Shown in pieces: positions 5,269 to 50,343 of a stretch of DNA of 50,465 bases. The notes beneath the pieces were generated by a model. It did not search any database and was not told the origin of the DNA. It was given only the letters and a program-made list of their open reading frames with translations. The first letter of the stretch is position 1. The number at the start of each line of letters is the position of its first letter. The position numbers and the translations under genes are program-made. The DNA is from Candidatus Poribacteria bacterium (lineage in GTDB: Bacteria > Abyssobacteria > SURF-5), in contig JACRIR010000243.1 of NCBI GenBank assembly GCA_016215705.1, forward strand, positions 1-50,465. The letters run 5' to 3'.

Positions 5269-6267
5269 TCACATCGCCATCCGAATCATCATGTCTATGC
5301 AGCGTTTGGAATAACCCCATTCGTTGTCATACCATGACACGGCCTTGAGCATCTTCGGTCCCATAGTCATGGTGAGTTGTGAATCAAATATGGACGAATG
5401 CGGATTCCCGATTATATCTACGGAGACTATGGGGTCCGCACAGTATTCAATGATTCCCTTGTGTGTTGTTTCCGAGGCTTTCTTCATTGCCTGATTTATG
5501 GTTTCGACCGTGACCTCTTTCCGTGTCACCGCCACGAAATCCGTGACCGAGCCGTCCGGAACAGGCACGCGCATCGCCATTCCGTCCAGTTTTCCTTTGA
5601 GCTCCGGGATCACTTTGCCCACGGCTCTGGCCGCGCCGGTGGTGGTAGGCACAATCGAAACTGCGGCTGAACGGGCCCGTCTCAAGTCTTTATGAGGAGT
5701 GTCCACAAGCCGCTGGTCGGCGGTGTATGCATGGACGGTTGTCATGAAACCGTACTCTATGCCGAAGGCATCATTCAAGACTTTCGCCATCGGCGCAAGG
5801 CAGTTTGTGGTGCAAGACGCATTGGATACTATGAGGTGCTCAGGCTTCAGAGCGCTGTCATTTGCACCCAGCACTATCATTGCATCTACTTCACCCTTGG
5901 GCGGAACCGTCAGCAGAACTTTCTTGGCGCCCGCCTGAATGTGCTTGGCGCAGTCCTCACGTTTGGCAAAGATGCCAGTGGCTTCCACGACAATCTGCAC
6001 TCCGAGGTCTTTCCATGGCAGCTTGGCCGGGTCTCTCTCCGCCAGGACTTTTACCTCACGTCTGCCGACAAGGAGTGCATTTCCATTGACGGAGACTATT
6101 TCGCTGAAACGCCGGTGGACTGAATCGTATTTTAGGAGATGAGCCAGAGTGGCTGCATCTGTAATATCATTGACTGCGACAACATCGATTTCAGGGTTCT
6201 CAAACGCTGCTCGATAGACCATGCGGCCTATCCTTCCGAATCCGTTAATTCCTATTCTTATAGCCAT
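5269..6267 (-). CDS. gap: Glyceraldehyde-3-phosphate dehydrogenase, type I
   Basis: The 332-residue protein opens with [16 protein letters not shown], the Rossmann NAD-binding motif. The active-site cysteine lies in [12 protein letters not shown] and the catalytic histidine in the [13 protein letters not shown] region. The C-terminal [11 protein letters not shown] is diagnostic. It oxidises glyceraldehyde-3-phosphate to 1,3-bisphosphoglycerate with NAD(P). The frame stays open 21 codons further upstream, but the ATG at 6267 follows AGGGGGAG at an ordinary distance and starts exactly at the conserved N-terminus. It is the first gene of the gap-pgk operon. Confidence 0.98.
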
Positions 6268-6320: not shown

Positions 6321-6329
6321 AGTATATCA
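6321..6329 (-). promoter_or_regulatory. Extended -10 promoter for gap-pgk
   Basis: The minus strand reads TGATATACT, an extended -10 (TGN followed by TATACT) 54 nt before the gap start. The -35 region is weak (TGGATT at 17-nt spacing). Only a few bases differ from consensus, so the call is reasonable but unproven. Confidence 0.5.
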
Positions 6330-6446
6330 CAAGAGCCGTGATAAATCCACATTGCCTGACCGAAGTAAAAGTAAATTAACCATTTGCAAAGAGTGAATTC
6401 CTGTTTTCTGGACTTGACCTTTCCCGATGGGAGTTATGACGCATTC

Positions 6447-6609
6447 CATGGTGTAGGGGGGCCAGGTGAACGACCGTTAAAGGACGGTGGCAAAGGGCGC
6501 CGATACATGCGGAGCGACCTCTGTTGCGGGTGCTTCTTGCATGCCGAATCGGTGAAGAGACATCGTTCACTTGTTTGCAACTGTCGGAAGGGCGACCCCC
6601 TACCCCATG
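6447..6609 (+). ncRNA. Candidate structured RNA, unassigned family
   Basis: Within the 544-bp gap between gap and the next plus-strand gene, nested complementary blocks predict one compact RNA of about 163 nt. P1 pairs 6447-6460 with 6596-6609 (13 of 14 pairs). P2 pairs 6463-6473 with 6563-6573 (11 pairs, one G-U). Inside are a hairpin pairing 6474-6477 with 6484-6487 and a long arm pairing 6498-6504 with 6548-6554 (one G-U), then 6506-6510 with 6539-6543. A 22-nt unpaired strand (6574-6595) faces only 2 nt, leaving an asymmetric internal loop. The G-U pairs fit only the plus strand. A TTGACC (6414-6419) and TATGAC (6435-6440) lie at a short 15-nt spacing and would start transcription near 6447. 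I compared it by eye with tmRNA, RNase P, SRP, 6S and common riboswitch motifs and found no match. It could also be an unrecognised divergent member of one of these. Confidence 0.45.
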
Positions 6610-6697
6610 CGGTAGCGCCTTTTGAACATATCAACCTGTTGGGGGTCAACGTAAGGCATTGGAATTGTTGTGGTTGAGATTCGACATTATTTTTTTG

Positions 6698-6726
6698 TTG
6701 ACAGAGGGGGCGGTACTGAGTATTAT
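6698..6726 (+). promoter_or_regulatory. Strong sigma-70-type promoter for the methyltransferase/ATP-grasp gene
   Basis: TTGACA (6698-6703), a 17-nt spacer and TATTAT (6721-6726) match the consensus closely. Initiation near 6733 would give a leader of about 80 nt with AAGGAG at 6791-6796 before the ATG at 6812. The structured RNA at 6447-6609 is upstream of this promoter and so would be a separate transcript. Confidence 0.75.
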
Positions 6727-6811: not shown

Positions 6812-8803
6812 ATGAGTGAGAAGACATCTGCAGACAAACCTCCCCAGCGAGGCAGGAATGGCGACCGTCACAGCGAACGTCCAAAGAGGGTATTAGGGCC
6901 TGTTCCCAACCTTGAGGAATATGTTCGTCCTGACTGGTGGAGGGGTATTTTCAACTCGATCTACCTCAAGACAGATGCGGATGTGGTTGACGACGATAAC
7001 ATCACTCGACACGAAATTGGTTTGTTTTTGGAAATCCTCAACAATCTCTCGCCCGAGGACAGGATACTGGACCTGTGCTGCGGGCAGGGGAGACATTCCC
7101 TGGAGTTGTCGAGGAGAGGATTCAAGAACGTAGAGGGATTGGACCGCTCGAGCTATTTGATTCAGAAGGCGAAGAAGAGCGCTCAGCAGCAACTATTAAG
7201 TGTAAAATTCAGGGAGGGAGACGCGCGAAAACTTCCTTACCCATCGGATACTTTCGATGTAATCATGATTCTGGGAAACAGTTTCGGTTACTTTGAGACT
7301 GTCAAAGATGACCTCAGGGTGCTCCAGGAGGTTTTCAGAATCCTGAAACCTTGGGGCAAGCTTCTCATTGATGTTACCGACGGCGAATATGTAAAGAAGC
7401 ATTTTCAGGCCCGCTCGTGGGAATGGATAGACAAGAAGTTATTTGTATGCAGGGAGCGGTCGCTTTCAGCCGACAAACAGCGTTTGATATCGCGTGAGGT
7501 GGTCACGCACGTGGGCAAAGGCGTGATTGCGGATCAGTTCTACGCCGAGAGGCTATACACGCGGAAGAGCCTGGGCGAGCTTATCAAAGAGGCTCGTTTC
7601 AGCGATTGCACGATACACGGGGAGATATCTCCCAATTCACGGCGCAACCAGGATTTGGGGATGATGGAGCAGCGCATTATCACTACGGCGCTGGTCAGAA
7701 AAGAGTGGACGCCCCTCAAGAGCAAGAGCAATGGAGTGGCCAGAAACGTCGTGGTGATTATGGGCGACCCCCACAAACCGGACCCTTTGAAGCCATCGTC
7801 GGTTTTCGATGATGACGACTTCTACACGATTGACCAGTTGAAGGATGCGTTGAGGGAACTGGAAGAGTACCGTTTCTCGTACTTGTGCAACCATGACAGC
7901 CTGATTCACGACATGAGGCGGCTGGCGGGAAGAGCGGACCTGGTTCTGAACCTGTGCGACGAGGGTTTCACGAATGACCCCAGGAAAGAGCTTCATGTGC
8001 CGGCCCTTCTGGAGGCGCTGGACATCCCGTATACGGGCGCTCGCCCTCAATGTCTCGCCTACTGCTACGATAAATCGCTTGTGCGCGGAATCGCAAGTGA
8101 GATGGAGATTCCCGTCCCTAAGGCCTTCTTTATCAAGCCGGAAGACACAAAGTTCGAGCTTCCGTTCGGATTCCCCGTAATCGTGAAGCCCAATTTCGGT
8201 GATTCCAGTTTCGGGATCACACAGCGATGCGTCGCGAACAGCCTCGAGGAGTTGCTCAACGCAATCTCGGAAATCCGCGAGCAATTCGGGTATGACAAAC
8301 CGATTCTGGCTGAGGAGTTTCTTCCTGGAAAAGACCTGAGCGTCGGGATCATAGGCAACCCGTCGACGTCATATAATGTTCTGCCAATCACGGAAGAGGA
8401 CTATTCCGCCGTCCCCGATGAACTTCCGAGAATCTGCGGTTACGAGGCAAAATGGCGTCCTGACTCGCCCTATTGGAACATCAAGTCAATTCGCGCTCAA
8501 CTGTCCGAAGAGGTAGAACGGTCCATCGTGGAATGGTGTCTAAAACTCTTTGAGCGTCTCGAGTGCCGGGACTATGCGCGTTTCGACTGGCGACTCGATG
8601 CCGACGGCAATCCCAGGTTGCTCGAGGTTAATCCGAATCCGGGCTGGTGCTGGGATGGTCATCTCGCGAAGATGGCGAAATTTGCAAGTATGTCGTACGC
8701 CCAGATGCTGGAAGCCATTCTGCGAGCAGCGGAACTGAGGCTCGGTATCCACGGGGCTGATGTGAAGAGAGAAGAGGAGCAGGTTGTAAAGGCCGCGGTT
8801 TAG
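6812..8803 (+). CDS. Fused SAM-dependent methyltransferase and ATP-grasp (D-Ala-D-Ala ligase-like) enzyme
   Basis: The 663-residue protein carries two enzymes in one chain. Residues about 40-295 are a class I methyltransferase: motif I ILDLCCGQGR (85-94), the acidic end of strand 2 near GLDRS (109-113), and REGDARKLPYPSDTFDVIMILG (134-155). Residues about 312-645 are an ATP-grasp ligase of the D-Ala-D-Ala ligase type: N-domain VVVIMGD, the GFPVIVKPNFGDSSFG ATP-binding region (453-468), EEFLPGKDLSVG (501-512), and metal ligands in RFDWR (D592) and LEVNPNPG (E605, N607). The first half would methylate a small molecule or peptide and the second would join a carboxylate to an amine with ATP. The substrate is unknown; peptide or amino-acid-derived product assembly is an inference. 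SD AAGGAG lies 15 nt before the ATG. The gene stands alone between a promoter and a terminator. Confidence 0.85.
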   Translation: MSEKTSADKPPQRGRNGDRHSERPKRVLGPVPNLEEYVRPDWWRGIFNSIYLKTDADVVDDDNITRHEIGLFLEILNNLSPEDRILDLCCGQGRHSLELSRRGFKNVEGLDRSSYLIQKAKKSAQQQLLSVKFREGDARKLPYPSDTFDVIMILGNSFGYFETVKDDLRVLQEVFRILKPWGKLLIDVTDGEYVKKHFQARSWEWIDKKLFVCRERSLSADKQRLISREVVTHVGKGVIADQFYAERLYTRKSLGELIKEARFSDCTIHGEISPNSRRNQDLGMMEQRIITTALVRKEWTPLKSKSNGVARNVVVIMGDPHKPDPLKPSSVFDDDDFYTIDQLKDALRELEEYRFSYLCNHDSLIHDMRRLAGRADLVLNLCDEGFTNDPRKELHVPALLEALDIPYTGARPQCLAYCYDKSLVRGIASEMEIPVPKAFFIKPEDTKFELPFGFPVIVKPNFGDSSFGITQRCVANSLEELLNAISEIREQFGYDKPILAEEFLPGKDLSVGIIGNPSTSYNVLPITEEDYSAVPDELPRICGYEAKWRPDSPYWNIKSIRAQLSEEVERSIVEWCLKLFERLECRDYARFDWRLDADGNPRLLEVNPNPGWCWDGHLAKMAKFASMSYAQMLEAILRAAELRLGIHGADVKREEEQVVKAAV

Positions 8804-13846: not shown

Positions 13847-13925
13847 TGGTCGGGGCGGCCGGATTTGAACCGGCGACCTCCTGCTCCCAAGGCAGGCGCG
13901 CTAAACCAAGCTGCGCTACGCCCCG
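13847..13925 (-). tRNA. tRNA-Pro (anticodon TGG)
   Basis: The minus strand folds as a complete cloverleaf: acceptor CGGGGCG with CGCCCCG, a T-arm containing GGTTCAAATCC, and an anticodon arm CCTGC-CTTGGGA-GCAGG, giving anticodon TGG (UGG), proline. The discriminator base is A and the CCA end is encoded (13849-13847). It charges proline for CCN codons. Confidence 0.97.
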
Positions 13926-15920: not shown

Positions 15921-16434
15921 CGTTGTTCTCCTTTTCTTTTTGCCGTTGAGCGCGCCGAGAACACTGAAGTATCGACGGGATTGTTTCGGCCCGCTTCCAG
16001 ATTATGAAGATGTATTATATCACACTGCCCCGCAGAATGACCCAACGCATTGTCATTCCGCACAGAGCGCAAAGGACGCAATGAATTGCGCCCCCACGGA
16101 TATGGAATCGATCATCGGACGGACTCTCAGATCATCGTTGTCAAAGTAGCCAAGACCGGCGGCGCTTTCTATGCCTCGAGCACGGCGCCTGCGGAGGCCG
16201 GACCCACAAGCTTGGGTTTGAGGGTTTGGGTGCAAAATAAATGTAGACTCGGTAGCAGGCAGAACGAGAATGACAAAGTAGCAAAAACGCAGCGGCACAC
16301 TTTCCATAAGTCGACGGATGTGGTTACAATAGTGATGGTTGAAAGACGGTGGGCGACTCGATGTCTGGTGTCAAAGGCAGAGAAGGTCTAGAGCCCAAAC
16401 TTCGCGCGTTACGAGACTCGAAAAGGGGGTTACT
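15921..16434. other. Intergenic region between divergent flavodoxin and HEAT genes
   Basis: No convincing gene is seen. A minus-strand extended -10 lies at 16014-16022. GAATGAC (16035-16041) and GTCATTC (16052-16058) form a 7-bp inverted repeat. A TACAAT at 16325-16330 could be a weak plus-strand -10 for the HEAT gene. Confidence 0.5.
16014..16022 (-). promoter_or_regulatory. Extended -10 promoter for the flavodoxin-fold gene
   Basis: The minus strand reads TGATATAAT, a TGN extended -10 with perfect TATAAT. No good -35 is seen. Initiation near 16007 gives a leader of about 87 nt. Confidence 0.5.
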
Positions 16435-22120: not shown

Positions 22121-23176
22121 TTATTCGAAGAGTCGCTTATTGCGGGCTTTCTTTCGGGCTTCTTCGGGAGTGACAATACACGCCTGTACGAGCTCGAGGA
22201 GATGTTCATCAAGTATTTGCATCCCGAACTTCCGTCCTGTCTGCATAATCGAGATCATTTGCTCGATCTTGCCTTCGCGTATTGCATTTGAAATCGCGGG
22301 TATTCCGATGAGAATCTCGGCGGCGGCCACCATGCCCGAGCCATCGGCGCGGCGGAGGAGATGCTGAGCGACCACGCCCGTGAGGGTTTCAGACAACAGG
22401 GTGCGCACCTGGTTCCTCTGCTCGAACGGAAACACGTTTACAATCCGGTTTATTGTCTTCGCCGCGTTGTCGGTGTGCAAAGTTCCGAAGACAAGCGCGC
22501 CCGTCTCGGCGGTGGTGAGGGCGGTCGAGATTGTCTCGAGGTCGCGCATCTCTCCGACCATGATCACGTCGGGGTCTTGTCGAACCGCGACGCGGAGCGC
22601 CGACGAAAAGCTTTCCGTATGAGGCCCGACTTGTCGCTGGGTAATAATACTGTTGACATTGTTATGGAGATACTCTATCGGTTCCTCGATTGTAATGATA
22701 TGGCACTGGCGGGACCTGTTGACGTAGTCAACCATCGACGCAAGGGTGGTCGTCTTGCCGCAGCCCGACGGCCCGCAGACCAGAACGAACCCGCGTTGGG
22801 TTGAGGCCAGTTTTTTCAGGCCGGGTGGGAATCCCAGTTCGTCGAGCGACCTGATTTTCGAGGGAATCGCGCGAAAGGCTATCGCGATTCCGTGCGACTG
22901 TGTGTAGACATTGCTCCTGAAGCGCGACACGCCCGGCAACTCATAGGCCAAGTCGAGTTCGCCTTCCTCTTCCAGAACCTTGATTTGCCTGTCAGTGAGT
23001 ATTTCGTAGACAAGCGGTTTCACGACTTCGTTGGTGAGAACGCCCGAGTTCTTGCCGAAAGTAATCGGCCTCAGTTCGCCGTGGACACGCACCACGGACT
23101 TCGAACCCGACATGATCATCAGGTCCGAGCCATCGTGTTTCACCAGAAAATCGAGAAACCTGTCTATCTCAGCCAA
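22121..23176 (-). CDS. PilT-like secretion/retraction ATPase, copy A2
   Basis: The 351-residue protein has Walker A GPSGCGKT (135-142), an Asp box written as TIEEPIEY (the usual D is E here), Walker B in DPDVIMVGEMRD (201-212) and the His box GTLHTDNAAKTINR. The C-terminus has IREGKIEQMISIMQTGRKFGMQ. PilT hexamers power type IV pilus retraction. This is the last of four tandem paralogues (transcribed 26533 towards 22121) and groups by eye with the copy at 24324-25379. It has a TTG start 14 bp after its upstream neighbour. No pilin or pilus-assembly gene lies in the window. Confidence 0.9.
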   Translation of the reverse strand: MAEIDRFLDFLVKHDGSDLMIMSGSKSVVRVHGELRPITFGKNSGVLTNEVVKPLVYEILTDRQIKVLEEEGELDLAYELPGVSRFRSNVYTQSHGIAIAFRAIPSKIRSLDELGFPPGLKKLASTQRGFVLVCGPSGCGKTTTLASMVDYVNRSRQCHIITIEEPIEYLHNNVNSIITQRQVGPHTESFSSALRVAVRQDPDVIMVGEMRDLETISTALTTAETGALVFGTLHTDNAAKTINRIVNVFPFEQRNQVRTLLSETLTGVVAQHLLRRADGSGMVAAAEILIGIPAISNAIREGKIEQMISIMQTGRKFGMQILDEHLLELVQACIVTPEEARKKARNKRLFE

Positions 23177-23190
23177 TGTGAATCCCTGTC

Positions 23191-24303
23191 TCAGGCAGTT
23201 TTGCCCGCCTGCTCCTTTTTGTGTTTTTCCCCGGCCTTTTTTTGTTCCTGGACGTACTCTCTGAAAAGCCCCTTATCCTCAATCTTGACCTGAGCCACTT
23301 TCGGGTCTATCTTTCCGGCCCTGAGCAGGTCTATAATGTGCTCGTCCATGAGCTGCATGCCGAACTTCTTGCTTGTCTGCATCGTTGAAGGAATCCGGTA
23401 TGTGTCGCCATGACGGATCAGGCTGGCCACAGCCGAGGTATTTATCATCACCTCGAGGGCCAGAATCATGCCGTCGCCCGCGCGGTTACGCATCAACTGC
23501 TGGGAGAGCACGCCGACAAGCGATTCGCCGAGCATTGTGCGCATCATATATTGTTGTTCGGGCGGAAACACGTTGATGATGCGCTCGATAGTCTTCGCCG
23601 CTCCCCTTGTGTGAAGCGTGCTGAACACAAGGTGGCCGGTTTCAGCCGCCGACACCGCGAGCGAAATGGTTTCGAGGTCGCGCATTTCGCCTACGACGAT
23701 CACATCGGGGTTTTCTCGGACGACCGAGCGGAGCGCGGAGGCGAAAGTCTTGGTATGTGTGCCCACTTCGCGCTGGTCTACATATGCCTTGTTGTTGATA
23801 TATTGAAACTCGATGGGGTCCTCGATCGTGATTATATGGCAGGCGCGCTCATGGTTTATGAGGTCCACGAGGGCGGCCAGCGTTGTGGATTTGCCGCATC
23901 CGGACGGACCGGTCACGAGAAAGAGCCCTTGCTCGCGTTGGGTTATCTCTTTGACAACCTCCGGAAGACCGATACTGTCAGCGGTCTTGATTTCGGTCGG
24001 AATGATTCGGAACGCGCCGCTCATGCCGCGTTCCTCCTGGTGGATGTTCACTCTAAACCGGCCGACTCTTTCGACCGCGTAAGAGAAGTCGATTTCCTTG
24101 TGGCGATCGAATTCCTGCCGCTGAACCTCATTCATGATCTCAAGGAGGTCGTGCTCGTTCTGTTCAGGGGATCGAACGTCGTGGTCGCTCAGTTTAATGA
24201 TATTCCCAAAGAGCCGGACCATCGGAGGCGATTTCGAGCACAGATGGACATCTGAAGCTCTTTTTTCCTTTGCGACTTTAAGAATAGAGTCTATGGCGGC
24301 CAT
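23191..24303 (-). CDS. PilT-like secretion/retraction ATPase, copy B2
   Basis: The 370-residue protein has Walker A GPSGCGKS, Asp box TIEDPIEF, Walker B NPDVIVVGEMRD and His box STLHTRGAAKTIERI. The N-terminus (IDSILKVAKEKRASDVHLCS) and the C-terminal YRIPSTMQTSKKFGMQLMDEHI match the copy at 25445-26533 better than the intervening copy, so it belongs to the B type. The C-terminal tail is extended and lysine-rich (EYVQEQKKAGEKHKKEQAGK). It starts with ATG after GGAG and lies 20 bp from the upstream paralogue. Function is type IV pilus-like motor ATPase by family. Confidence 0.9.
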   Translation of the reverse strand: MAAIDSILKVAKEKRASDVHLCSKSPPMVRLFGNIIKLSDHDVRSPEQNEHDLLEIMNEVQRQEFDRHKEIDFSYAVERVGRFRVNIHQEERGMSGAFRIIPTEIKTADSIGLPEVVKEITQREQGLFLVTGPSGCGKSTTLAALVDLINHERACHIITIEDPIEFQYINNKAYVDQREVGTHTKTFASALRSVVRENPDVIVVGEMRDLETISLAVSAAETGHLVFSTLHTRGAAKTIERIINVFPPEQQYMMRTMLGESLVGVLSQQLMRNRAGDGMILALEVMINTSAVASLIRHGDTYRIPSTMQTSKKFGMQLMDEHIIDLLRAGKIDPKVAQVKIEDKGLFREYVQEQKKAGEKHKKEQAGKTA

Positions 24304-24323
24304 TTGTCTCCTCTTTTCGCCTC

Positions 24324-25379
24324 TCAGTTGAACCTGTGTTTCTCGAATGCCTTCTCGCGCGCGGCCTCGCGAGAGACCACGCCTTTGTCCACCAACTTGA
24401 GCAGATGGTCGTCAAGCATCTGCATACCTTCGCGGGCGCTGGTTTGCATAATCGAGATTATCTGCTCGATCTTGTTCTCGCGGATCGCGTTGCGAATGGC
24501 CGGGCTGCAAATCATGATCTCCATTGCGGCGACACGGCCCTTCTTGTCGGACCTCTTCATGAGTGTCTGCGCTATGACGGATGAGAGCGATTCGGAGAGC
24601 AGCGTCCGTATCTGGTTCTGGGCCTCATTCGGAAACACGTCAATAATCCGGTTGATCGTTTTTGCAGCGCTATTTGTGTGCAGAGTCGCAAACACGAGCG
24701 AGCCGGTTTCGGCAGCGGTCAGCGCAAGCGATATGGTCTCGAGGTCACGCATCTCGCCCACGAGGATTATGTCGGGGTCCTGTCGCAATGCGACTCGCAA
24801 CGCGGCAGAAAAGGAGTTGGTGTGTACACCGACTTCGCGCTGAGTGATAAGGCACTTCTTGTTTTTGTGCACGAATTCTATGGGGTCTTCAATCGTGACG
24901 ATATGTCCCTCGCGTTCGTCGTTGATCTGGTCCATCATGGCGGCAAGGCTGGTTGTCTTTCCGCTTCCCGTGGGTCCCGTGACCAGAATCAAGCCGCTGT
25001 TGAACCGGGCTATTTCTTTCAGTTGGTCGGGCAGACCGAGTTGATCGACCGTCGCAATGTTTGTCGGAATGGTCCGCATGACGGTTGAGGGACCGCTTAT
25101 CTGGTTGTGCACATTCACGCGGAAACGAGCCACTCCTTCGATTTCATAAGCGAGGTCGATATCGCCCGTGGCCTCGAAATGGCGTATCTGGTCGTCGTCC
25201 AACATCTCGTAGATCAATCCCCGGTTTACCTCCGGAGTCAGGACGATATCGCCTTCGCTGTAATCTATTCGCCTCAAGTCGCCGTGCACGCGAATGAGCG
25301 GACGGGCGCCGCACATAAGGTGGAGATCGGACCCTTGTTGCGCAACCATGAATCTGAGCAGTTTGTCAATTTCGGACAA
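24324..25379 (-). CDS. PilT-like secretion/retraction ATPase, copy A1
   Basis: The 351-residue protein has Walker A GPTGSGKT, Asp box TIEDPIEF, Walker B DPDIILVGEMRD and His box ATLHTNSAAKTINRI. It has exactly the same length as copy A2 and shares IREKKIEQIISIMQT-type spacing (here IRENKIEQIISIMQTSAREGMQ). Of the four it has the most canonical ATPase motifs. The start is TTG preceded by an in-frame stop two codons upstream, with AGAGGG as SD. It lies 65 bp downstream of copy B1. Confidence 0.92.
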   Translation of the reverse strand: MSEIDKLLRFMVAQQGSDLHLMCGARPLIRVHGDLRRIDYSEGDIVLTPEVNRGLIYEMLDDDQIRHFEATGDIDLAYEIEGVARFRVNVHNQISGPSTVMRTIPTNIATVDQLGLPDQLKEIARFNSGLILVTGPTGSGKTTSLAAMMDQINDEREGHIVTIEDPIEFVHKNKKCLITQREVGVHTNSFSAALRVALRQDPDIILVGEMRDLETISLALTAAETGSLVFATLHTNSAAKTINRIIDVFPNEAQNQIRTLLSESLSSVIAQTLMKRSDKKGRVAAMEIMICSPAIRNAIRENKIEQIISIMQTSAREGMQMLDDHLLKLVDKGVVSREAAREKAFEKHRFN

Positions 25380-25444
25380 TCCGGCTCACCCTCTTCATAA
25401 GGAGGCGAAAGACGAGAGGAAACGCATTCCACCTGACCTCGCTT

Positions 25445-26533
25445 TCACGATACGGCTGCGGCGCGTCCCGGTTTCTGGGACAGCGCAGAGCGGATAACTT
25501 CCTTGTTTGTCGCCATCTGGTACGCGTGTTTCGGGTCCACTTTTCCGGCCTGAAGAAGCTCCAGTATGTGGTCGTCAAGCATGCGCATTCCGTATTTTCG
25601 GCCGGCTTGCATGTAACCGGGTATCTGGTACGTTTTGTCATCTCGAATCATCGATCTGATCGAAGGCGTAGCAATCAGGACCTCCATCGCAGCGATGCGG
25701 CCGGTTCCCTTCGCGTTCCTGATGAGTTGTTGCGACATAACGCCGCCGAGCGATTCCGAGAGCATGGTGCGTATCTGTTTTTGTTGGTTGGGCGGAAACA
25801 CGTTGATGACGCGCTCGACCGTCTTGTATGCGCTGAGAGTGTGGAGCGTGCTGAAAACAAGGTGCCCCGTCTCAGCAGCGGTGATGGCCATCGAGATCGT
25901 TTCCAAATCGCGCATCTCGCCGACCAGAATAACGTCCGGGTCTTCGCGAAGCGAAGCGCGGAGAGCAGCGGCGAATGACCGTGTGTGAATGCCGACCTGC
26001 CTCTGGTTCACCTGGCTCAGGATGTTCGTATGAACAAACTCTATGGGGTCCTCGATCGTGATTATGTGTTCTCCGCGCTCTCGGTTGACCAGGTTGATGA
26101 GAGCCGCCAAGGTCGTTGACTTCCCACAGCCGGCGGGACCCGTTACGAGCACAAGACCGTTGCGTAGACGGGTAAGTCCCTTGATCGCCTCGGAGACTCC
26201 AATCTCCTCCGCGCTGGTGATAACAGAAGGAACGATTCTAAAAGCGGCGCCGACTCCGCGCTCTTCGAGATAAACGTTGGTTCTGAAGCGGCTCAATCCC
26301 TGAATTTCGTAACAGAAGTCCACTTGTTTGTGCACATCGTATTCGGAGCGCTGGTCCGGATTCAGTATCCCCATTATCATATCCCGGCAATCCTCTTTCC
26401 GTATGACATCCTGGCCGGGCAGTCTTTTGATGTCGCCGAGATGACGAACCATGGGAGGCATGTCGCTCAGAACGTGCACGTCGGATGCCTTCATATTCAT
26501 GGCGTCGCGCAGAATTTTGTCGAGGTCAACCAA
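25445..26533 (-). CDS. PilT-like secretion/retraction ATPase, copy B1 (first gene of the array)
   Basis: The 362-residue protein has Walker A GPAGCGKS, Asp box TIEDPIEF, Walker B DPDVILVGEMRD and His box STLHTLSAYKTVERV. The C-terminus has the YQIPGYMQAGRKYGMRMLDDHI segment of the B type. The TTG start follows AAAGG and lies 100 nt from the start point of a perfect consensus promoter. It leads the four-gene minus-strand operon. Confidence 0.92.
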   Translation of the reverse strand: MVDLDKILRDAMNMKASDVHVLSDMPPMVRHLGDIKRLPGQDVIRKEDCRDMIMGILNPDQRSEYDVHKQVDFCYEIQGLSRFRTNVYLEERGVGAAFRIVPSVITSAEEIGVSEAIKGLTRLRNGLVLVTGPAGCGKSTTLAALINLVNRERGEHIITIEDPIEFVHTNILSQVNQRQVGIHTRSFAAALRASLREDPDVILVGEMRDLETISMAITAAETGHLVFSTLHTLSAYKTVERVINVFPPNQQKQIRTMLSESLGGVMSQQLIRNAKGTGRIAAMEVLIATPSIRSMIRDDKTYQIPGYMQAGRKYGMRMLDDHILELLQAGKVDPKHAYQMATNKEVIRSALSQKPGRAAAVS

Positions 26534-29921: not shown

Positions 29922-32900
29922 TCACCTCTTTGTGAAGGACCATATTTGCAGACTGTTAACGATTGTCGTCGGCTGGTGGTTCAAATCCGCTCCGTCCACT
30001 TTCCAGTATACCGGTTTTCCGGCGGTGATCTGGTTCCACAGCGACTGAGGCATAGTCCAGCTATTCCCGGATATCGTCTGATGCAGGTTTTTATACGTGG
30101 ACCAATAGGTCTTGAAATCCGGTGAATAGCTCAAATCGACGCTGAAAACGTTGTTTATGCCGCCTGTCGCCGACCAGACAAAGGTTGGCGGAGCGCTGAG
30201 TGAGGAGCTGTTCCACGGTGACACCAGGTTAATCTGCGTCAATTCCGACTCTGCGACATTGAGGTTTACTGTCAGGGTCTGCGGGCTATTGCCTACGCCG
30301 GCGGAGGTAACTGTTACTGTAGTCGAGTAATTGCCCGGGTTCAGGCCGGAGGAACTGTACTGCACGGTGATGATATCGTGTTCGCCGGCTGAAGAGCCGC
30401 TAATCGGAGAGCAGGACAACCAGAACACGTTTTCGCTTACCGTATACGACAGCGTCCCCTGACCCGAATTCCAAATCTCGAAAGTCTGAGACGGAGCATT
30501 TGCTCCGCGCATCGTGGAATTGTTCAGTATTGTTGTGCTCAGGGCCAGGGCTGGGGCGGACTGTGCGGTCACCGTCGAGCAGAATGTGTCCGAGCCGCAG
30601 CCATTTGCGGCAGTGAGACAAACCTGGTACGTGCCCGGGGTCGTGAACGTGTGAGATGGGTTCCTCAACGTACTTACTGCCGAGCCATCACCGAAATTCC
30701 ACTGCCATGAGGACGGATTTCCTGCGGAAGTATCTGTGAACGCGACCGGCAATGGCGCTTGTCCGATGGCAGGAAGCGCTGTAAAACCGGCGACCGGTGT
30801 CCCGCCCACCGTCACGTAGCCGTTCTTCGTCATAGTGTCGGAGCCGGCGACACTCGTCACGTTCAGACTGACATTGTATGTGCCCACGTTAGAGTAAATG
30901 TGCGCGGGGTTCTGCTCCGTGCTGGTCTGGCCATCACCGAGATTCCACTGCCAAATGGTCGGGTCGCACTGCGAGAGGTCGGTGAACTGCACATTCAGCG
31001 GGGCGCAGCCGCTTGTGACATCGGCGCTGAAGTCAGACACGACCTCGCTTACTGTGATGGGTTTGCACAATGTGTCGGAGCCCGCGTCATTTGTGACTTG
31101 CAAGCATACCATATATGCGCCGGCGCCGGCATACTGGTGCGATGGGTTCCCCACGTCACTCGTGTAGCCATCGCCGAAATCCCACGCCCACGATGTCGGA
31201 ATGCCGCTCGAGAGATCAGTGAACTGCACAGTCGTCCCGACACAGACATCACCCGGCGGTATTGTTTCGAAATCCGCCTGAGGCGGCGCGCTGACCGTCA
31301 CATAGTCCATCAGTGTGACTGAATCCGTGCCACCGGCGTTTGTGACCGTCAGGGTGACAGTGTACGTGCCGGCATCCGTGTAAACGTGCGCCGGATTCTG
31401 CTGGGTGCTCGTTTCGGCATCGCCGAATTCCCACAACCAACTAGTCGGGTTACACAAGGACTCGTCAGTGAATTGCACGGTGAGGGGGCCGTTGCCGCTC
31501 ACGGGATCACCACTAAGACCGGCCACGATCGGGCTGACCGTGATAAAGGCTGTCCTTGTCAGGGAATCGGACCCGGCGGCATTGGATACCGTGAGTCTGA
31601 CCGTATAGGACCCGGCCAACGCATACGTGTGCACCGGATTCACCTGGGCGCTCGTCGCGCCGTCGCCGAATTCCCATAGCCAAGCGGTCGGACCACAAGT
31701 GGCGAGGCTAGTGAATTGTACGGACTGCCCAACACAAACGGTGTCGGCCGGGCTGCCGGCAAAATCGGCGGTCGGAGGAACTGCCAGAACCGATGTCGCG
31801 AAAGTCACGGAGGTTGTAGCAGCAGGGCCGGGGCCGTTAAACGGCGGCGACAACGGATTGCCGTCAATGTTGTTTCTGAACGGATATATGCGGAAAGTGA
31901 CAGTCCGCCCTGCCAGGAACGACGGCCCATCAAACTGAAGCTCAGTTTCGTCCGCCGGTAACGGGTTGACGGGAAGAGGGGCAAACTCGCCATAAATATC
32001 AGCTTCAATCCAGTAGCCGCTCTCGTTTTCATCGACATACAGCGTAGCCGCATTATCACTATTGGTGTCATCCCATGTGAGGAGAACCTGTCGAATGGGA
32101 TTCTCGATTTCAGGCGCGCACAGATTGCCGTTGAAGCTATCCACAGCGTTCAGCAACGTTGTGCTCGTCGAATTGAACACGTTTGTGTTGATTGTCTCAT
32201 TCGAGCGCGTGCGGATGCCGTTCGAATCCACAAACCCAATCCCGCGGCGGGTGAACGGGTACGCCTGGTGGGTGTTGAGGGCCTCGTATGGTCTGTAGCG
32301 GTTTCCGCTGACAGTGTGCGGCGCCGGGGCCGTCGGGCTGTCCGGTCCCCAGCTTATCAGGGCAACAGAGAAACTGTCTCTGACGGGATCAAATACCGAA
32401 CTTGTGCGGATGACCAGGAAGAAGTCGTCGCCTTCGTTAGCGTCGGTATCGGCCGCCGGAATGAGTTGTTTGTTCTGATCGGAGGAGAATACCATCAGAA
32501 CTTGATTGGACTCTTCTCCTGCGAGCCCGATCCGAGACGGATTGAGCCCCAATGCAGGGGTTACATCCATGGGAACGAGCGTGTCGACGCCCGGACCATC
32601 GAATCTGCCGTTGCCATTTGCGTCGTGGTAGAGCTGGATTCCGCTGTTCACGGTATTGGCGCCATTGACATTTTCAAACGGAAGCAAGTCAGAGGCGAGG
32701 TTGAAACTGTCGTGCGTGCCGTACTGCAGGAAGGCGACAACGAGTTGCTCAAAATACACATCCACGCCTCCCTGGGCTGCGGGCGATCGGTTTGTGTACA
32801 TGTTAAACCCGATCACGGGCGTGTAGCCGCTGCTCGAGGCCAGCGATTGACCTGACGCCACCAGATCATGCAGCTCGACAGGCACATTGGCTCGAACACT

Positions 32901-35804
32901 CTTGATGTTGGAATCAGGAGAGGGGTTCTCCGGATCAAACAAATCAACGCTTCTTATGGTTGTAAGCCCGTTCGAAAATGCAAGACCAAAAATCGGTATT
33001 TCGATTTTGAGTTCGTCGTCGTAGCTGATTGAATCAGATGTTTCAACCACCACAAAGTAGTCAGCGCCTGTAAAAACGGTATCCCGGGGAATCTGAAGGC
33101 CCGGCGTGTACGGACTCTGAATCATCTCAAAATTGTCAGTGAAGACATCGACGGAAGCATCTTCTTCTATCATGTCGTGGGAATATAGACGAGGAGGTAT
33201 TTCGGGAGTGAGCACGACATAGTCAGCGCCGTCATTCTGCCACGTCCAAGGTGTCAGAGCAACAGGTGAGTCTTCGTCGGGATTAGTCGGCGCGTTGAGA
33301 TTGCTTTCCGGTGGGGGGAGATTCCAGAGATCATTAAAGATATCGAACACACCTACGGTTCGCCCCGCGCGCAGATAGGGGCTCTTGTCATCGCGCACAA
33401 GGAATATTTCGCTTATGTCATCCGGATTGAAGCCGTCCCCCGAGAAATTCAGCCTGATTTCCGTCAGCGTTATCGGCTCGTCTATGAGGTTCAACTGCGG
33501 AACTTCACTTGTTGCTGCGTTGAGAGCAAGGAGCGCCGTCGGCAAAGACGTGGCGTCAATCCTCTGTTGGATCGGTGTCGCCTGATCGAGGTCAAGCTCA
33601 AAGTCGAATGAAAGGTCCTGGGCGTCCACGACACCGTCCAGTTTGTGTGTCTGTCTGAAGATGCTGGGCGCAGCGGAATTATCGGCCAAGATCACAAGCC
33701 CGTCCCGTGGATTGGCACGCTCGAATATTACAGGCGGCGTTTGCGGCAGGCCGTCGAGATTGAAGTCAGAGCGATCTTCCGCCACATTGATCGTTCCGTC
33801 GCCATCCAAGTCTTCGGCGCGTTCGAGAGAGATTTTGAAGTCCGCCCCGAAATTGATGGCAGTCCCATCACCCCATGTTCCGGAGTCGTCGAGCCAACCT
33901 GAGTCGGGCCTCATCACGACAAAGAAATCGGATTTCCGGTCCGGGAACGTCTCTAAGTACGGAGGGTTTGTGAACGCAAGTTGGAGCATGTAAATGGTTG
34001 CGTCCGGGTTTTGATGATACGGAAAGCCGGGAAGCGGTGAAACCCAGAAGTCAAAATCCACCGGTTGGTCGCCGGTGTCCGGGTCAAAAGTATAGGTTAG
34101 CGGGTCAAGCGTAGGCTCCGTATATTTTCCATCGTTGTTGGTATCCTCATAGACCGCTATTCCGCAGAAGTAACTGGAACAGCAGAGCACCGAGTCCAGA
34201 CCCAGCAGAGGATTAAACTCGTAGAGTGAAAGCAAATCTCCGCCTACGTTGCTCAAAGTAAGCGTTAAACCGGCAAGAACCTCAGGGTTACTGGTTGTTC
34301 CACCTGCTATATCAAGCCCTATAATGTTCTGTCTGCGTTCAAGTTGCGCAACAACAGGCTGCTCAAAGGAGTGATGGAATCCCTCATAGGTGTTTTCGCC
34401 TATGCCGGTGAACTCTCGATCTCTTTCACCGAGGTATCTTATTCGCAGGCTCTGCCCCGGAATACTGTATGCGTACCGCAGGGCATCTTCGGGGAGATCC
34501 AAAGAAGCACCCGGATTCGCTGCGACTTTCGTATCGTCGTCGGTTCTATCCATTGCAATCGGCCACAAATCAAGCACAAGGGCTTCCGTTGTTATTGCAG
34601 ATGTCTCAATATCGGGGGATAGGAGGGGCGGGAAAAACTGCATTGCTCCGCTGACGCTGGTCACCCATACTGAATACGGCTCAATTATCATTTTGAAGTC
34701 GTCAACCCGATTGAGATCGACCATGTCGAAATCAGAATCAATGGAGTCGCTCGTGCGGATAGTCACGAAAAAGTCGTTGCCGGCATAAACATTCACGTCG
34801 TCAGCGGGAAGGTATGGATGCGGCATTGCGCTCGACCACTGCCAAATGAGATAGAATGGTGTGTTTTCTGAACTCTGAGGAATCTCGACTTCGCCAATGA
34901 GAATATCGGGGGGATTTTCCCCACCGGGTGGATTAAACACTCCGTTCGTTTCGGGGTCCAAGCCGGGAGCATCCTGATACAACTGCAATACCATGAAATC
35001 CGAGGGAGTTATCTCCTCAAGACCGTCCGCAGAGGTTTCCCCCACGTCTTCCACCCGGACCACGATGGTGTATAGCCATTGATTGGCGCCTTTGACGGAG
35101 GCATTGATTCCAAACACTTCGGTCGAACCGGATCGCGGGAGAATGGCCTGATTGGCGCCCGCGAGCGGCGTTATGACCATGGTTGCCTTAGGAGTTTTTA
35201 CCACGGTCAGGATGAAGGTCTCTTCGTCTGCGGCGGGAAACGAACCTGTTTCGACTACAGGAGCGCCACCCGGGTATCCCACGACCAGCATCGTGGCCTG
35301 GTTTATGCCTACGCTAAAATCGTCGCCTGTATTCAAGGTTTCTGCCGTCGAGATGACAACGAATATGTCATTCGGTACAGCGATTGCCACTTCATCAAAT
35401 ACGGCTGTATAATCGCATCCGTCCACAGTCAAATCGGAACCGGCTACGGTGCCGGCGGCCGGGCCATCCTCCACCGAATTGAATATGCCGTCTCCGTCGT
35501 CCACATAGAGCTCGACCGAAACAAAATCCTCGGGCAAGACATCACAAGGGGATATTCCCCCCGCATGGATGACAACCTCCGCGCCTTCCACCTGAGTCAA
35601 GTAGGGATTCGCCGTTGTAGCATGGATAAGGAGAACCGCTGTCGGGACCGAACCCGTTGCGATAACTTCCCCGGAATATGTAAGGTCTTCAACCCAGACA
35701 TTGGTTTGCGCGAGCGCGCTTTGCCCGCAAAGGAAGAAGGTCGAAAGAGTGAGAATGAAAACAAGTGGAGTCAGACAACGCAACGCATGATTACGCAACG
35801 ACAT
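29922..35804 (-). CDS. Giant secreted protein with five novel modules, five PKD domains and a BACON-like domain
   Basis: The protein is 1960 residues. Residues 1-32 are a signal peptide ending ALAQ. Residues about 55-1150 hold five degenerate modules. Each starts with a beta-strand such as VIGFNMYT, most carry an acidic calcium-loop-like stretch (for example YHDANGNGRFDG at 1059-1070), and each ends with a [DN]-x-F-[FV]-V-x-[IV]-x-T-type block near 146, 344, 626, 915 and 1126. An Fn3-like segment follows (about 1235-1340). Five PKD domains of about 81 residues (about 1344-1750) each carry a W-x-[WF]-x-[FL]-G-D-type core and NPxHxY. A BACON-like domain (WLSCSPISGSSAGEHD, about 1750-1850) and a C-terminal beta domain (1856-1960) complete it. 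There is no PEP-CTERM, LPXTG or obvious anchor. Such proteins bind calcium, glycans or other surface proteins outside the cell. SD is GGGAGGG. A hairpin-containing leader precedes it. Confidence 0.85.
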   Translation of the reverse strand: MSLRNHALRCLTPLVFILTLSTFFLCGQSALAQTNVWVEDLTYSGEVIATGSVPTAVLLIHATTANPYLTQVEGAEVVIHAGGISPCDVLPEDFVSVELYVDDGDGIFNSVEDGPAAGTVAGSDLTVDGCDYTAVFDEVAIAVPNDIFVVISTAETLNTGDDFSVGINQATMLVVGYPGGAPVVETGSFPAADEETFILTVVKTPKATMVITPLAGANQAILPRSGSTEVFGINASVKGANQWLYTIVVRVEDVGETSADGLEEITPSDFMVLQLYQDAPGLDPETNGVFNPPGGENPPDILIGEVEIPQSSENTPFYLIWQWSSAMPHPYLPADDVNVYAGNDFFVTIRTSDSIDSDFDMVDLNRVDDFKMIIEPYSVWVTSVSGAMQFFPPLLSPDIETSAITTEALVLDLWPIAMDRTDDDTKVAANPGASLDLPEDALRYAYSIPGQSLRIRYLGERDREFTGIGENTYEGFHHSFEQPVVAQLERRQNIIGLDIAGGTTSNPEVLAGLTLTLSNVGGDLLSLYEFNPLLGLDSVLCCSSYFCGIAVYEDTNNDGKYTEPTLDPLTYTFDPDTGDQPVDFDFWVSPLPGFPYHQNPDATIYMLQLAFTNPPYLETFPDRKSDFFVVMRPDSGWLDDSGTWGDGTAINFGADFKISLERAEDLDGDGTINVAEDRSDFNLDGLPQTPPVIFERANPRDGLVILADNSAAPSIFRQTHKLDGVVDAQDLSFDFELDLDQATPIQQRIDATSLPTALLALNAATSEVPQLNLIDEPITLTEIRLNFSGDGFNPDDISEIFLVRDDKSPYLRAGRTVGVFDIFNDLWNLPPPESNLNAPTNPDEDSPVALTPWTWQNDGADYVVLTPEIPPRLYSHDMIEEDASVDVFTDNFEMIQSPYTPGLQIPRDTVFTGADYFVVVETSDSISYDDELKIEIPIFGLAFSNGLTTIRSVDLFDPENPSPDSNIKSVRANVPVELHDLVASGQSLASSSGYTPVIGFNMYTNRSPAAQGGVDVYFEQLVVAFLQYGTHDSFNLASDLLPFENVNGANTVNSGIQLYHDANGNGRFDGPGVDTLVPMDVTPALGLNPSRIGLAGEESNQVLMVFSSDQNKQLIPAADTDANEGDDFFLVIRTSSVFDPVRDSFSVALISWGPDSPTAPAPHTVSGNRYRPYEALNTHQAYPFTRRGIGFVDSNGIRTRSNETINTNVFNSTSTTLLNAVDSFNGNLCAPEIENPIRQVLLTWDDTNSDNAATLYVDENESGYWIEADIYGEFAPLPVNPLPADETELQFDGPSFLAGRTVTFRIYPFRNNIDGNPLSPPFNGPGPAATTSVTFATSVLAVPPTADFAGSPADTVCVGQSVQFTSLATCGPTAWLWEFGDGATSAQVNPVHTYALAGSYTVRLTVSNAAGSDSLTRTAFITVSPIVAGLSGDPVSGNGPLTVQFTDESLCNPTSWLWEFGDAETSTQQNPAHVYTDAGTYTVTLTVTNAGGTDSVTLMDYVTVSAPPQADFETIPPGDVCVGTTVQFTDLSSGIPTSWAWDFGDGYTSDVGNPSHQYAGAGAYMVCLQVTNDAGSDTLCKPITVSEVVSDFSADVTSGCAPLNVQFTDLSQCDPTIWQWNLGDGQTSTEQNPAHIYSNVGTYNVSLNVTSVAGSDTMTKNGYVTVGGTPVAGFTALPAIGQAPLPVAFTDTSAGNPSSWQWNFGDGSAVSTLRNPSHTFTTPGTYQVCLTAANGCGSDTFCSTVTAQSAPALALSTTILNNSTMRGANAPSQTFEIWNSGQGTLSYTVSENVFWLSCSPISGSSAGEHDIITVQYSSSGLNPGNYSTTVTVTSAGVGNSPQTLTVNLNVAESELTQINLVSPWNSSSLSAPPTFVWSATGGINNVFSVDLSYSPDFKTYWSTYKNLHQTISGNSWTMPQSLWNQITAGKPVYWKVDGADLNHQPTTIVNSLQIWSFTKR

Positions 35805-48812: not shown

Positions 48813-50312
48813 ATGGCGTTGCGTGCTATGCCGGGAACCAGTGAAATTCTAACGAACCTCTTCGAGCCGAAATCGATTGCGCTCATCGGCGCGTCGAAGA
48901 GCCCAACAAAATGGGGATTCCTCATCCTCATGAACCTCACCCTCGGCGGCTACAAAGGCAATATCTACCCCGTTAACCCCAAAGAGACGGAAATCCTCGG
49001 CCTCAAAGCGTATCCCTCCATATCCGATATTCCGGGTCATGCTGATTTGGTGGTCATTGCGGTTCCAGCAACACATGTGGCGCAAGTCATCCGCGAGTGC
49101 AAAGGCAAAGCAAAAATCGCGCTCGTGATAACCGCCGGCTTCGGCGAGCTCGGGCCGGGAGAGAAGAAGATGGAGGACGACGTTGTCCGTGCCGCTCGAG
49201 AGAATGGTATCCGCGTCGTAGGCCCGAACTGCAACGGCGCAATGTGCTCGAATCCGGCGTGCATGTACGCGCTCATGCCTTCCTATTTCCCGCGGCCAAA
49301 CACGCTCAGCATGGCCTCACAGAGCGGTAACGTCGGCGGCATCATGCTCCGCATGTCCGTGCTCCGCAACTGCGGGTTCGGCAAATATGTGAGCACAGGC
49401 AACGAGGCCGACCTGCACGTCGAAGACTATTTCGATTATTTCTTGAACGACCCGGCTACCGATGTCATCCTATCGTATGTCGAAGGGCCACGCGACGGAA
49501 AGAAACTGATGCAGGTGGCCCGCGCCGTGACGCCCCATAAGCCGATCGTAATGATAAAAGGCGGCCGCACACCCGCCGGCAGCATAGCCGCCAACTCGCA
49601 CACCGGCTCGCTCGCCGGCGCCGACACCGTGTTCTCCGCCATGTGTAAGCAATCGGGCATAATTCTTGTGAATGATATCGACGAGTTGTTCGACGTAGGA
49701 CTTGCTCTCAAACGACAGCCTCTGCCGCGCGGCAACCGCGTCGCCATACTGACCACCGGCGGAGGGCTGGGAGTCCTTTGTGCAGACGTGTGCCACAGCA
49801 TCGGATTGGAAGTCGTATCCCTCAAATCCGAAACCATTAAGCGGCTCGATTCCGTCCTTCCGCCGTGGTGGAACCGTGGGAATCCCGTCGACCTTGTGGC
49901 CGGACTCACGCGAAGCAGCGTGACGGGCTGTCTCGATGCGCTCGCGCGCGCCGACGAAGTAGACTGCATCCTTGCGCTCGGCATGGGATTCGGCTCGGCC
50001 CGCGCAAAACTGCTCAAAGACACGTCGCTTTACCAGGACCCCGACGTGAAGAAAATGTGTGAGCGATCGATCGAAGAAGACATGAATTCCGCCCGCGCAG
50101 TGATTGAGTGTATCGACAAATTCAACAAGCCGGTCCTGGTCGTCTCCGAGGCAGCGGTTTTGTCCAAGGAGGATAGGAAGGGCTCACTTGAGTTGCTCGA
50201 GTCGAACGGCGTTTTCCCATATCCCAGTTTCGTGCGCGCGGCAAGGGTAATGAAGTGCCTGGTTGAAAGACAGCGGTTTCTGCGTGCAGAGGGGTCAGGT
50301 CTACACACTTGA
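48813..50312 (+). CDS. ADP-forming acyl-CoA synthetase, alpha-subunit-type protein
   Basis: The 499-residue protein starts at the ATG at 48813, following TTGGAGA. It has a CoA-binding domain (PKSIALIGASKSPTKWGF, a Rossmann-type start; GPNCNGAMCSNP) and two succinyl-CoA ligase-like domains with the phosphohistidine segment NSHTGSLAGAD and the hinge MIKGGRTPAGS. Such proteins convert acyl-CoA, ADP and phosphate to acid, CoA and ATP, gaining energy. They usually need a beta subunit with an ATP-grasp domain, either fused or next door; here the last residues are SGLHT and no beta domain is fused. The stop codon lies inside the left arm of a 21-bp inverted repeat, so the C-terminal residues may come from an insertion. 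Confidence 0.88.
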   Translation: MALRAMPGTSEILTNLFEPKSIALIGASKSPTKWGFLILMNLTLGGYKGNIYPVNPKETEILGLKAYPSISDIPGHADLVVIAVPATHVAQVIRECKGKAKIALVITAGFGELGPGEKKMEDDVVRAARENGIRVVGPNCNGAMCSNPACMYALMPSYFPRPNTLSMASQSGNVGGIMLRMSVLRNCGFGKYVSTGNEADLHVEDYFDYFLNDPATDVILSYVEGPRDGKKLMQVARAVTPHKPIVMIKGGRTPAGSIAANSHTGSLAGADTVFSAMCKQSGIILVNDIDELFDVGLALKRQPLPRGNRVAILTTGGGLGVLCADVCHSIGLEVVSLKSETIKRLDSVLPPWWNRGNPVDLVAGLTRSSVTGCLDALARADEVDCILALGMGFGSARAKLLKDTSLYQDPDVKKMCERSIEEDMNSARAVIECIDKFNKPVLVVSEAAVLSKEDRKGSLELLESNGVFPYPSFVRAARVMKCLVERQRFLRAEGSGLHT

Positions 50313-50343
50313 CAGTGTATTTACTGTCAAGTGTGTAGACCTG
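50296..50343. repeat. Perfect 21-bp inverted repeat overlapping the end of the acyl-CoA synthetase gene
   Basis: 50296-50316 is the exact reverse complement of 50323-50343, with a 6-nt GTATTT loop. The arms begin CAGGTCTACACACTTG. The gene stop (50310-50312) lies in the left arm. There is no T-tract after it and no transposase nearby. It resembles a REP-like or miniature palindromic element rather than a normal terminator. Confidence 0.8.

Follow-up and report, generated by a model that had tools for sequence, protein, structure and literature searches.

A 163-base segment at 6447-6609, lying between the divergent genes gapA and a methyltransferase/ATP-grasp gene, is a GC island bounded by inverted repeats, with no coding signal and no detectable homologues. 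We favour the view that this segment is what remains, in decayed and inert form, of a small inserted element with inverted-repeat ends and is under no selection at the RNA level (probability about 0.45), and prefer it to the view that the segment specifies a species-specific small RNA; both the insertion event and the absence of function are what we infer here. Under the favoured reading, a small element would have been inserted between the divergent promoters of the two genes and would then have decayed, and the ability of the strand to fold would stem from its two halves being inverted copies (forming the helices P1 and P2 described below), not from any use of the fold. The window, i.e. the whole 50,465-nt stretch of DNA analysed, is contig C184 of genome G000 (5.47 Mb, 92% complete).

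The segment sits in a 544-bp spacer. On one side is gapA (5269-6267, minus strand, start codon at 6267), named for glyceraldehyde-3-phosphate dehydrogenase from its sequence and known biology; on the other is the gene for a methyltransferase with a D-Ala-D-Ala-ligase-like ATP-grasp part (6812-8803, plus strand). The GC content of the segment is 59% vs. 42% on either flank, and the edges of this GC island lie near P1. Two open reading frames (97 and 145 aa) cross the segment; their codon-usage scores equal those of their own shuffles, while the neighbouring genes score clearly higher, and neither frame has a match among protein families. These two results rule out a protein-coding gene or a protein remnant, and agree with the first-pass annotation, which had placed no gene in the region.

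That annotation had also described a compact structured RNA made of two nested long helices (13 of 14 pairs, then 11 pairs) that enclose a hairpin and a long arm. The minimum-energy fold of 6447-6609 (-70.6 kcal/mol, plus strand) includes these helices. P1 joins 6447-6460 to 6596-6609 through 13 of 14 possible Watson-Crick pairs, with one U-C mismatch and no G-U pair, and P2 joins 6463-6473 to 6563-6573 through 11 pairs, one of them G-U. They are separated by 2 nt at the 5′ side, and at the 3′ side by 22 nt that form an asymmetric loop in the centroid fold (6574-6595). In six sequence contexts of 163 to 501 nt, the mean pair probability is 0.94-0.99 for P1 and 0.86-0.90 for P2; in all of these contexts both helices thus dominate the ensemble and are undisturbed by the flanking sequence. 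The hairpin (ACCGUU-AAAG-GACGGU, 6473-6488), whose first A-U pair is in competition with the last one of P2, is likewise found, as are the 22-nt loop and an arm at 6490-6540, but the minimum-energy pairing of this arm differs from the one originally drawn, and the model leaves it less certain than P1 and P2. The argument that G-U pairs fit only the plus strand proved thin, given that P1 has none and P2 a single one; the outer helices are retained nearly unchanged on the minus strand, which folds with z = -2.4. Overall, the original observation is partly confirmed.

The stability of the fold depends on where its ends are placed. For 6447-6609 the stability z-score is -3.5, a value that holds for these hand-picked ends only. 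Folding 6400-6640, the check that had been proposed with the annotation, gives z = -0.5; sliding 160-nt windows reach at most about -1, and neutral ends overall give about 0 to -1. When the best closed local structures, 120-200 nt in size, are ranked along its own strand of the window, the segment comes 21st, and local shuffling of the window gave, in each of 11 replicates, 11-26 closed structures of that size with equal or better stability. The overall folding stability is therefore ordinary, at the level of shuffled sequence, and the case illustrates that a hand-drawn fold, however impressive, can turn out to be thermodynamically unremarkable when one corrects for how its ends were chosen. 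Helices like P1 are, on their own, at chance frequency (2 seen vs. 1.2 expected). The combination of a P1-like helix with a P2-like helix nested inside it turned up in none of 400 shuffles of the whole window and, with looser rules, in 1 of 200 block shuffles. This nesting is the only unusual property of the fold, and its being rarer than chance is suggestive only, since the rules of the test were written after the structure had been seen and the reader had the whole window to pick from.

The earlier reader could place the segment in no known class by eye, and the Rfam covariance models bear this out: none matches it at the gathering score, nor at E≤10. Two families of comparable appearance were considered. 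6S RNA (RF00013) shares a similar length, a closing helix and an internal loop with the segment, but the genome's real 6S RNA lies at another locus (G000:C80, 88 bits), which excludes a disguised copy. The bacterial small SRP RNA (RF00169), alike in being small and structured, is excluded in the same manner by a real copy at G000:C7 (74 bits). The segment is neither a tRNA nor a tmRNA, the sole such match in the window being tRNA-Pro at 13847-13925.

Searches for homologues were calibrated with these two RNAs. The phylum genomes available for comparison are two sisters (G001 and G002), both from other genera of the same family, in which blastn recovers the 6S and SRP RNAs of G000 at 80-94% identity (E 1e-29 to 1e-54). 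The best blastn match of the segment in the same sister genomes is 21 nt long with E = 0.035. A conserved RNA would thus have been detected, and the segment is not a housekeeping RNA of the phylum, as the yardstick RNAs match strongly while it has no such sister match. A sister-genome search that uses known RNAs as a yardstick is in this way informative even without a covariation test. A covariance model built from the single sequence of the segment (R1) gave only chance-level matches outside it: the best had E = 3.8 in the three phylum genomes (an unrelated repeat-like sequence in a sister genome), E = 3.5 at loci around relatives of both neighbouring genes (sisters included) and E = 0.096 in 386 genomes, a set that includes G000, where the segment itself was the only match. 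No copy was found by blastn in 98 genomes (G000 counted, again with the segment as its only match; 95 lie beyond the three of the phylum), nor was there a match in phages, plasmids or viral contigs. Many bacterial small RNAs are confined to one genus, so a segment that lacks homologues may still be an RNA.

Several of these observations are what a decayed insertion would leave behind: the segment is absent from both sister genomes, where real RNAs of similar size are 80-94% identical; its overall stability is that of shuffled sequence; it is a GC island with edges near P1; it is non-coding, with no good promoter or terminator found by scan; and its inverted repeats are nearly all Watson-Crick and hence strand-symmetric. 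In addition to terminal inverted repeats of about 10-14 bp, a 5-bp direct repeat, CCATG, occurs at both ends (6446-6450 and 6605-6609) and is compatible with a target-site duplication, but it is short, and weak as evidence because CATG is itself palindromic. In sister genome G002, the sequence immediately upstream of gapA holds a long inverted repeat unlike that of the segment (L047, about 1763-1868; nearly perfect, 16 of 17 pairs, CCGGGCACATGATACCT...), and nine weaker partial matches to its second half occur at other places in that genome. From this repeat and its partial matches, repeat-like insertions upstream of gapA seem to occur in the lineage. The G002 repeat was discarded as a homologue of the segment itself, having neither sequence similarity to it nor a match to R1. 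The segment resembles MITE-like elements in its inverted-repeat ends, its lack of coding capacity, its size (they are about 150 bp) and its short flanking direct repeat, but differs from them in being single-copy. No sibling or second copy was found in G000, which leaves the insertion putative. The nesting of P1 and P2, the robustness of the fold to its context, which is like that of a real RNA, and the confinement of many small RNAs to one genus, with which missing homologues fit equally, also count against an inert insertion.

A small RNA confined to the species or genus, made from the plus strand between about 6447 and about 6609-6626 and acting in trans, is the reading we would turn to next, although we hold it to be rather unlikely. 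It would account for the context-independence of P1 and P2 and for a nesting that shuffled sequence reproduced in 0 of 400 and 1 of 200 cases, and a hairpin followed by UUUU at 6587-6623 could terminate such a transcript. It would also be in keeping with the contrast between a GC-rich island and the AT-rich spacer around it, the feature exploited by the GC-IGR approach, in which GC-rich intergenic regions yield candidates for structured non-coding RNAs that are judged by covariation and conserved unpaired nucleotides (PMC6429828). The segment shares with those candidates a long GC-rich stretch in an AT-rich spacer, a multi-stem junction and the absence of coding, but unlike them it has no homologues and hence neither covariation nor conserved unpaired nucleotides (PMC6429828). 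Shuffle-level stability and the empty homologue searches argue against a small RNA, as do the transcription signals. The short-spaced promoter pair noted in the first pass exists in the sense that TTGACC (6414-6419) and TATGAC (6435-6440) are present on the plus strand, but the pair is poor, with a 15-nt spacer and a -10 element lacking T at its last position, and the consensus scan does not report it as a promoter. That scan, which covers only sigma-70-type sites, found neither promoter nor terminator for the segment; the signals seen there by eye are this weak TTGACC-15-TATGAC pair (6414-6440) and the hairpin with its UUUU. If the segment is transcribed, it would add one species-specific small RNA for a poorly sampled phylum.

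A more elaborate form of this proposal appears improbable: the segment would encode a small RNA limited to the lineage, about 165-180 nt long and built around a multi-helix junction, that switches between two forms. In this supposed switch, P1 would be exchangeable for an alternative 3′ hairpin, GAAGGGCG..CUACC..GGUAG..CGCCUUUU (6587-6623, plus strand), which would take up the 3′ strand of P1 and ends in UUUU. The alternative hairpin is unpopulated in the ensemble of 6447-6626, and the fold without P1 is 11.4 kcal/mol worse.

That the segment is simply unselected intergenic sequence in which two helices have become nested by accident seems more improbable still. P1-like helices arise about once per window at random, the structure is one among thousands that a reader could have picked, and its overall stability rank is ordinary, but the nested pair itself appeared in only 0 of 400 and 1 of 200 shuffles.

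There is little to recommend the idea that the segment derives from two GTAG-tagged repetitive extragenic palindromes (REPs) in inverted orientation that have since decayed. Such REPs carry a GTAG-tagged head followed by a small palindrome (PMC3733652). G000 does contain a repeat family of this kind, with a head of the form TGTAGGGGCG and then a palindrome: the motif TGTAGGGGSG occurs 219 times in G000 (vs. 17 for the reversed control), 213 times in G002 and 35 times in G001, where reversed controls across the genomes number 11-18, and the copies read have the GTAG head and small palindrome, like the REPs of PMC3733652. Such repeats were also read at L146-L175. The segment resembles GTAG-tagged REP/BIME units (PMC3733652) in being intergenic and in having inverted arms that both contain GTAGGGG, as do the REP-like repeats of the genome, and the 5′ arm of P1 carries the first eight bases of the repeat head. 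The segment is single-copy, however, and both arms fail the repeat profile of the genome: their scores are negative and place them at ranks 132 and 345 in the window; the copies in the window that are likely genuine are those at 16073 (+20) and 13988 (+18). Where GGGGTAGGGGG was read at other places in G000, it formed part of an unrelated palindrome, and a search for sibling elements with GGKGTAGGGGG ends also led to an unrelated palindrome or to unrelated sequence. A second dispersed palindrome, of the type CCCCCCTTTGCAAAGGGGGGTAGGGGGGATTT, is present in G000 (L183, L186 and L189).

Least of all do we expect the segment to be a riboswitch-like, cis-acting leader of the methyltransferase/ATP-grasp gene, with P1 and the 3′ hairpin plus its UUUU as competing forms: the 3′ strand of P1 can indeed form the 6587-6623 hairpin instead, as in a transcription-terminating switch, but the stability of that hairpin is lower by about 11 kcal/mol and only four U follow it, R1 matches no other locus with relatives of this gene or of gapA (best outside E = 3.5), and a promoter lies between the segment and the gene. 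This predicted promoter for the methyltransferase/ATP-grasp gene, TTGACA-17-TATTAT (6698-6726, plus strand), is near-consensus for sigma-70 (11 of 12 matches) and is the only strong promoter that the consensus scan finds in the spacer, 3′ of the segment and 5′ of the gene. On the other side, gapA apparently has its own extended -10 element (TGATATACT, 6321-6329, minus strand), read by eye as its probable promoter. The segment falls outside both untranslated regions as predicted from these promoters at 6698-6726 and 6329-6321, which are not mapped starts, and is thus probably not the leader of the methyltransferase/ATP-grasp gene. The cis-acting alternative raised in the first-pass annotation is accordingly disfavoured, both neighbouring genes appearing to have promoters of their own.

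The methyltransferase/ATP-grasp protein (6812-8803) has at least 579 relatives, of which the best 80 are 66-75% identical and are spread across many bacterial and archaeal phyla; among the NCBIfam models listed for it, none reaches its cut-off. In one of the two sisters there is no full-length copy, which suggests horizontal transfer of the gene.

Other features of the window were observed as well. A perfect inverted repeat of 21 nt, its arms separated by 6 nt (CAGGTCTACACACTTGACAGT), lies at 50296-50343, at the end of a 504-aa open reading frame, and this region holds the most stable plus-strand local structure of the window relative to composition. At 22121-26533, four consecutive open reading frames of 351-370 aa, which are probably tandem paralogues, have repeated DNA common to all of them at regular spacing. 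Finally, a 1960-aa open reading frame (29922-35804) contains five direct repeats with a spacing of about 240 bp (30684-31691), which suggest that its product has repeated protein domains.
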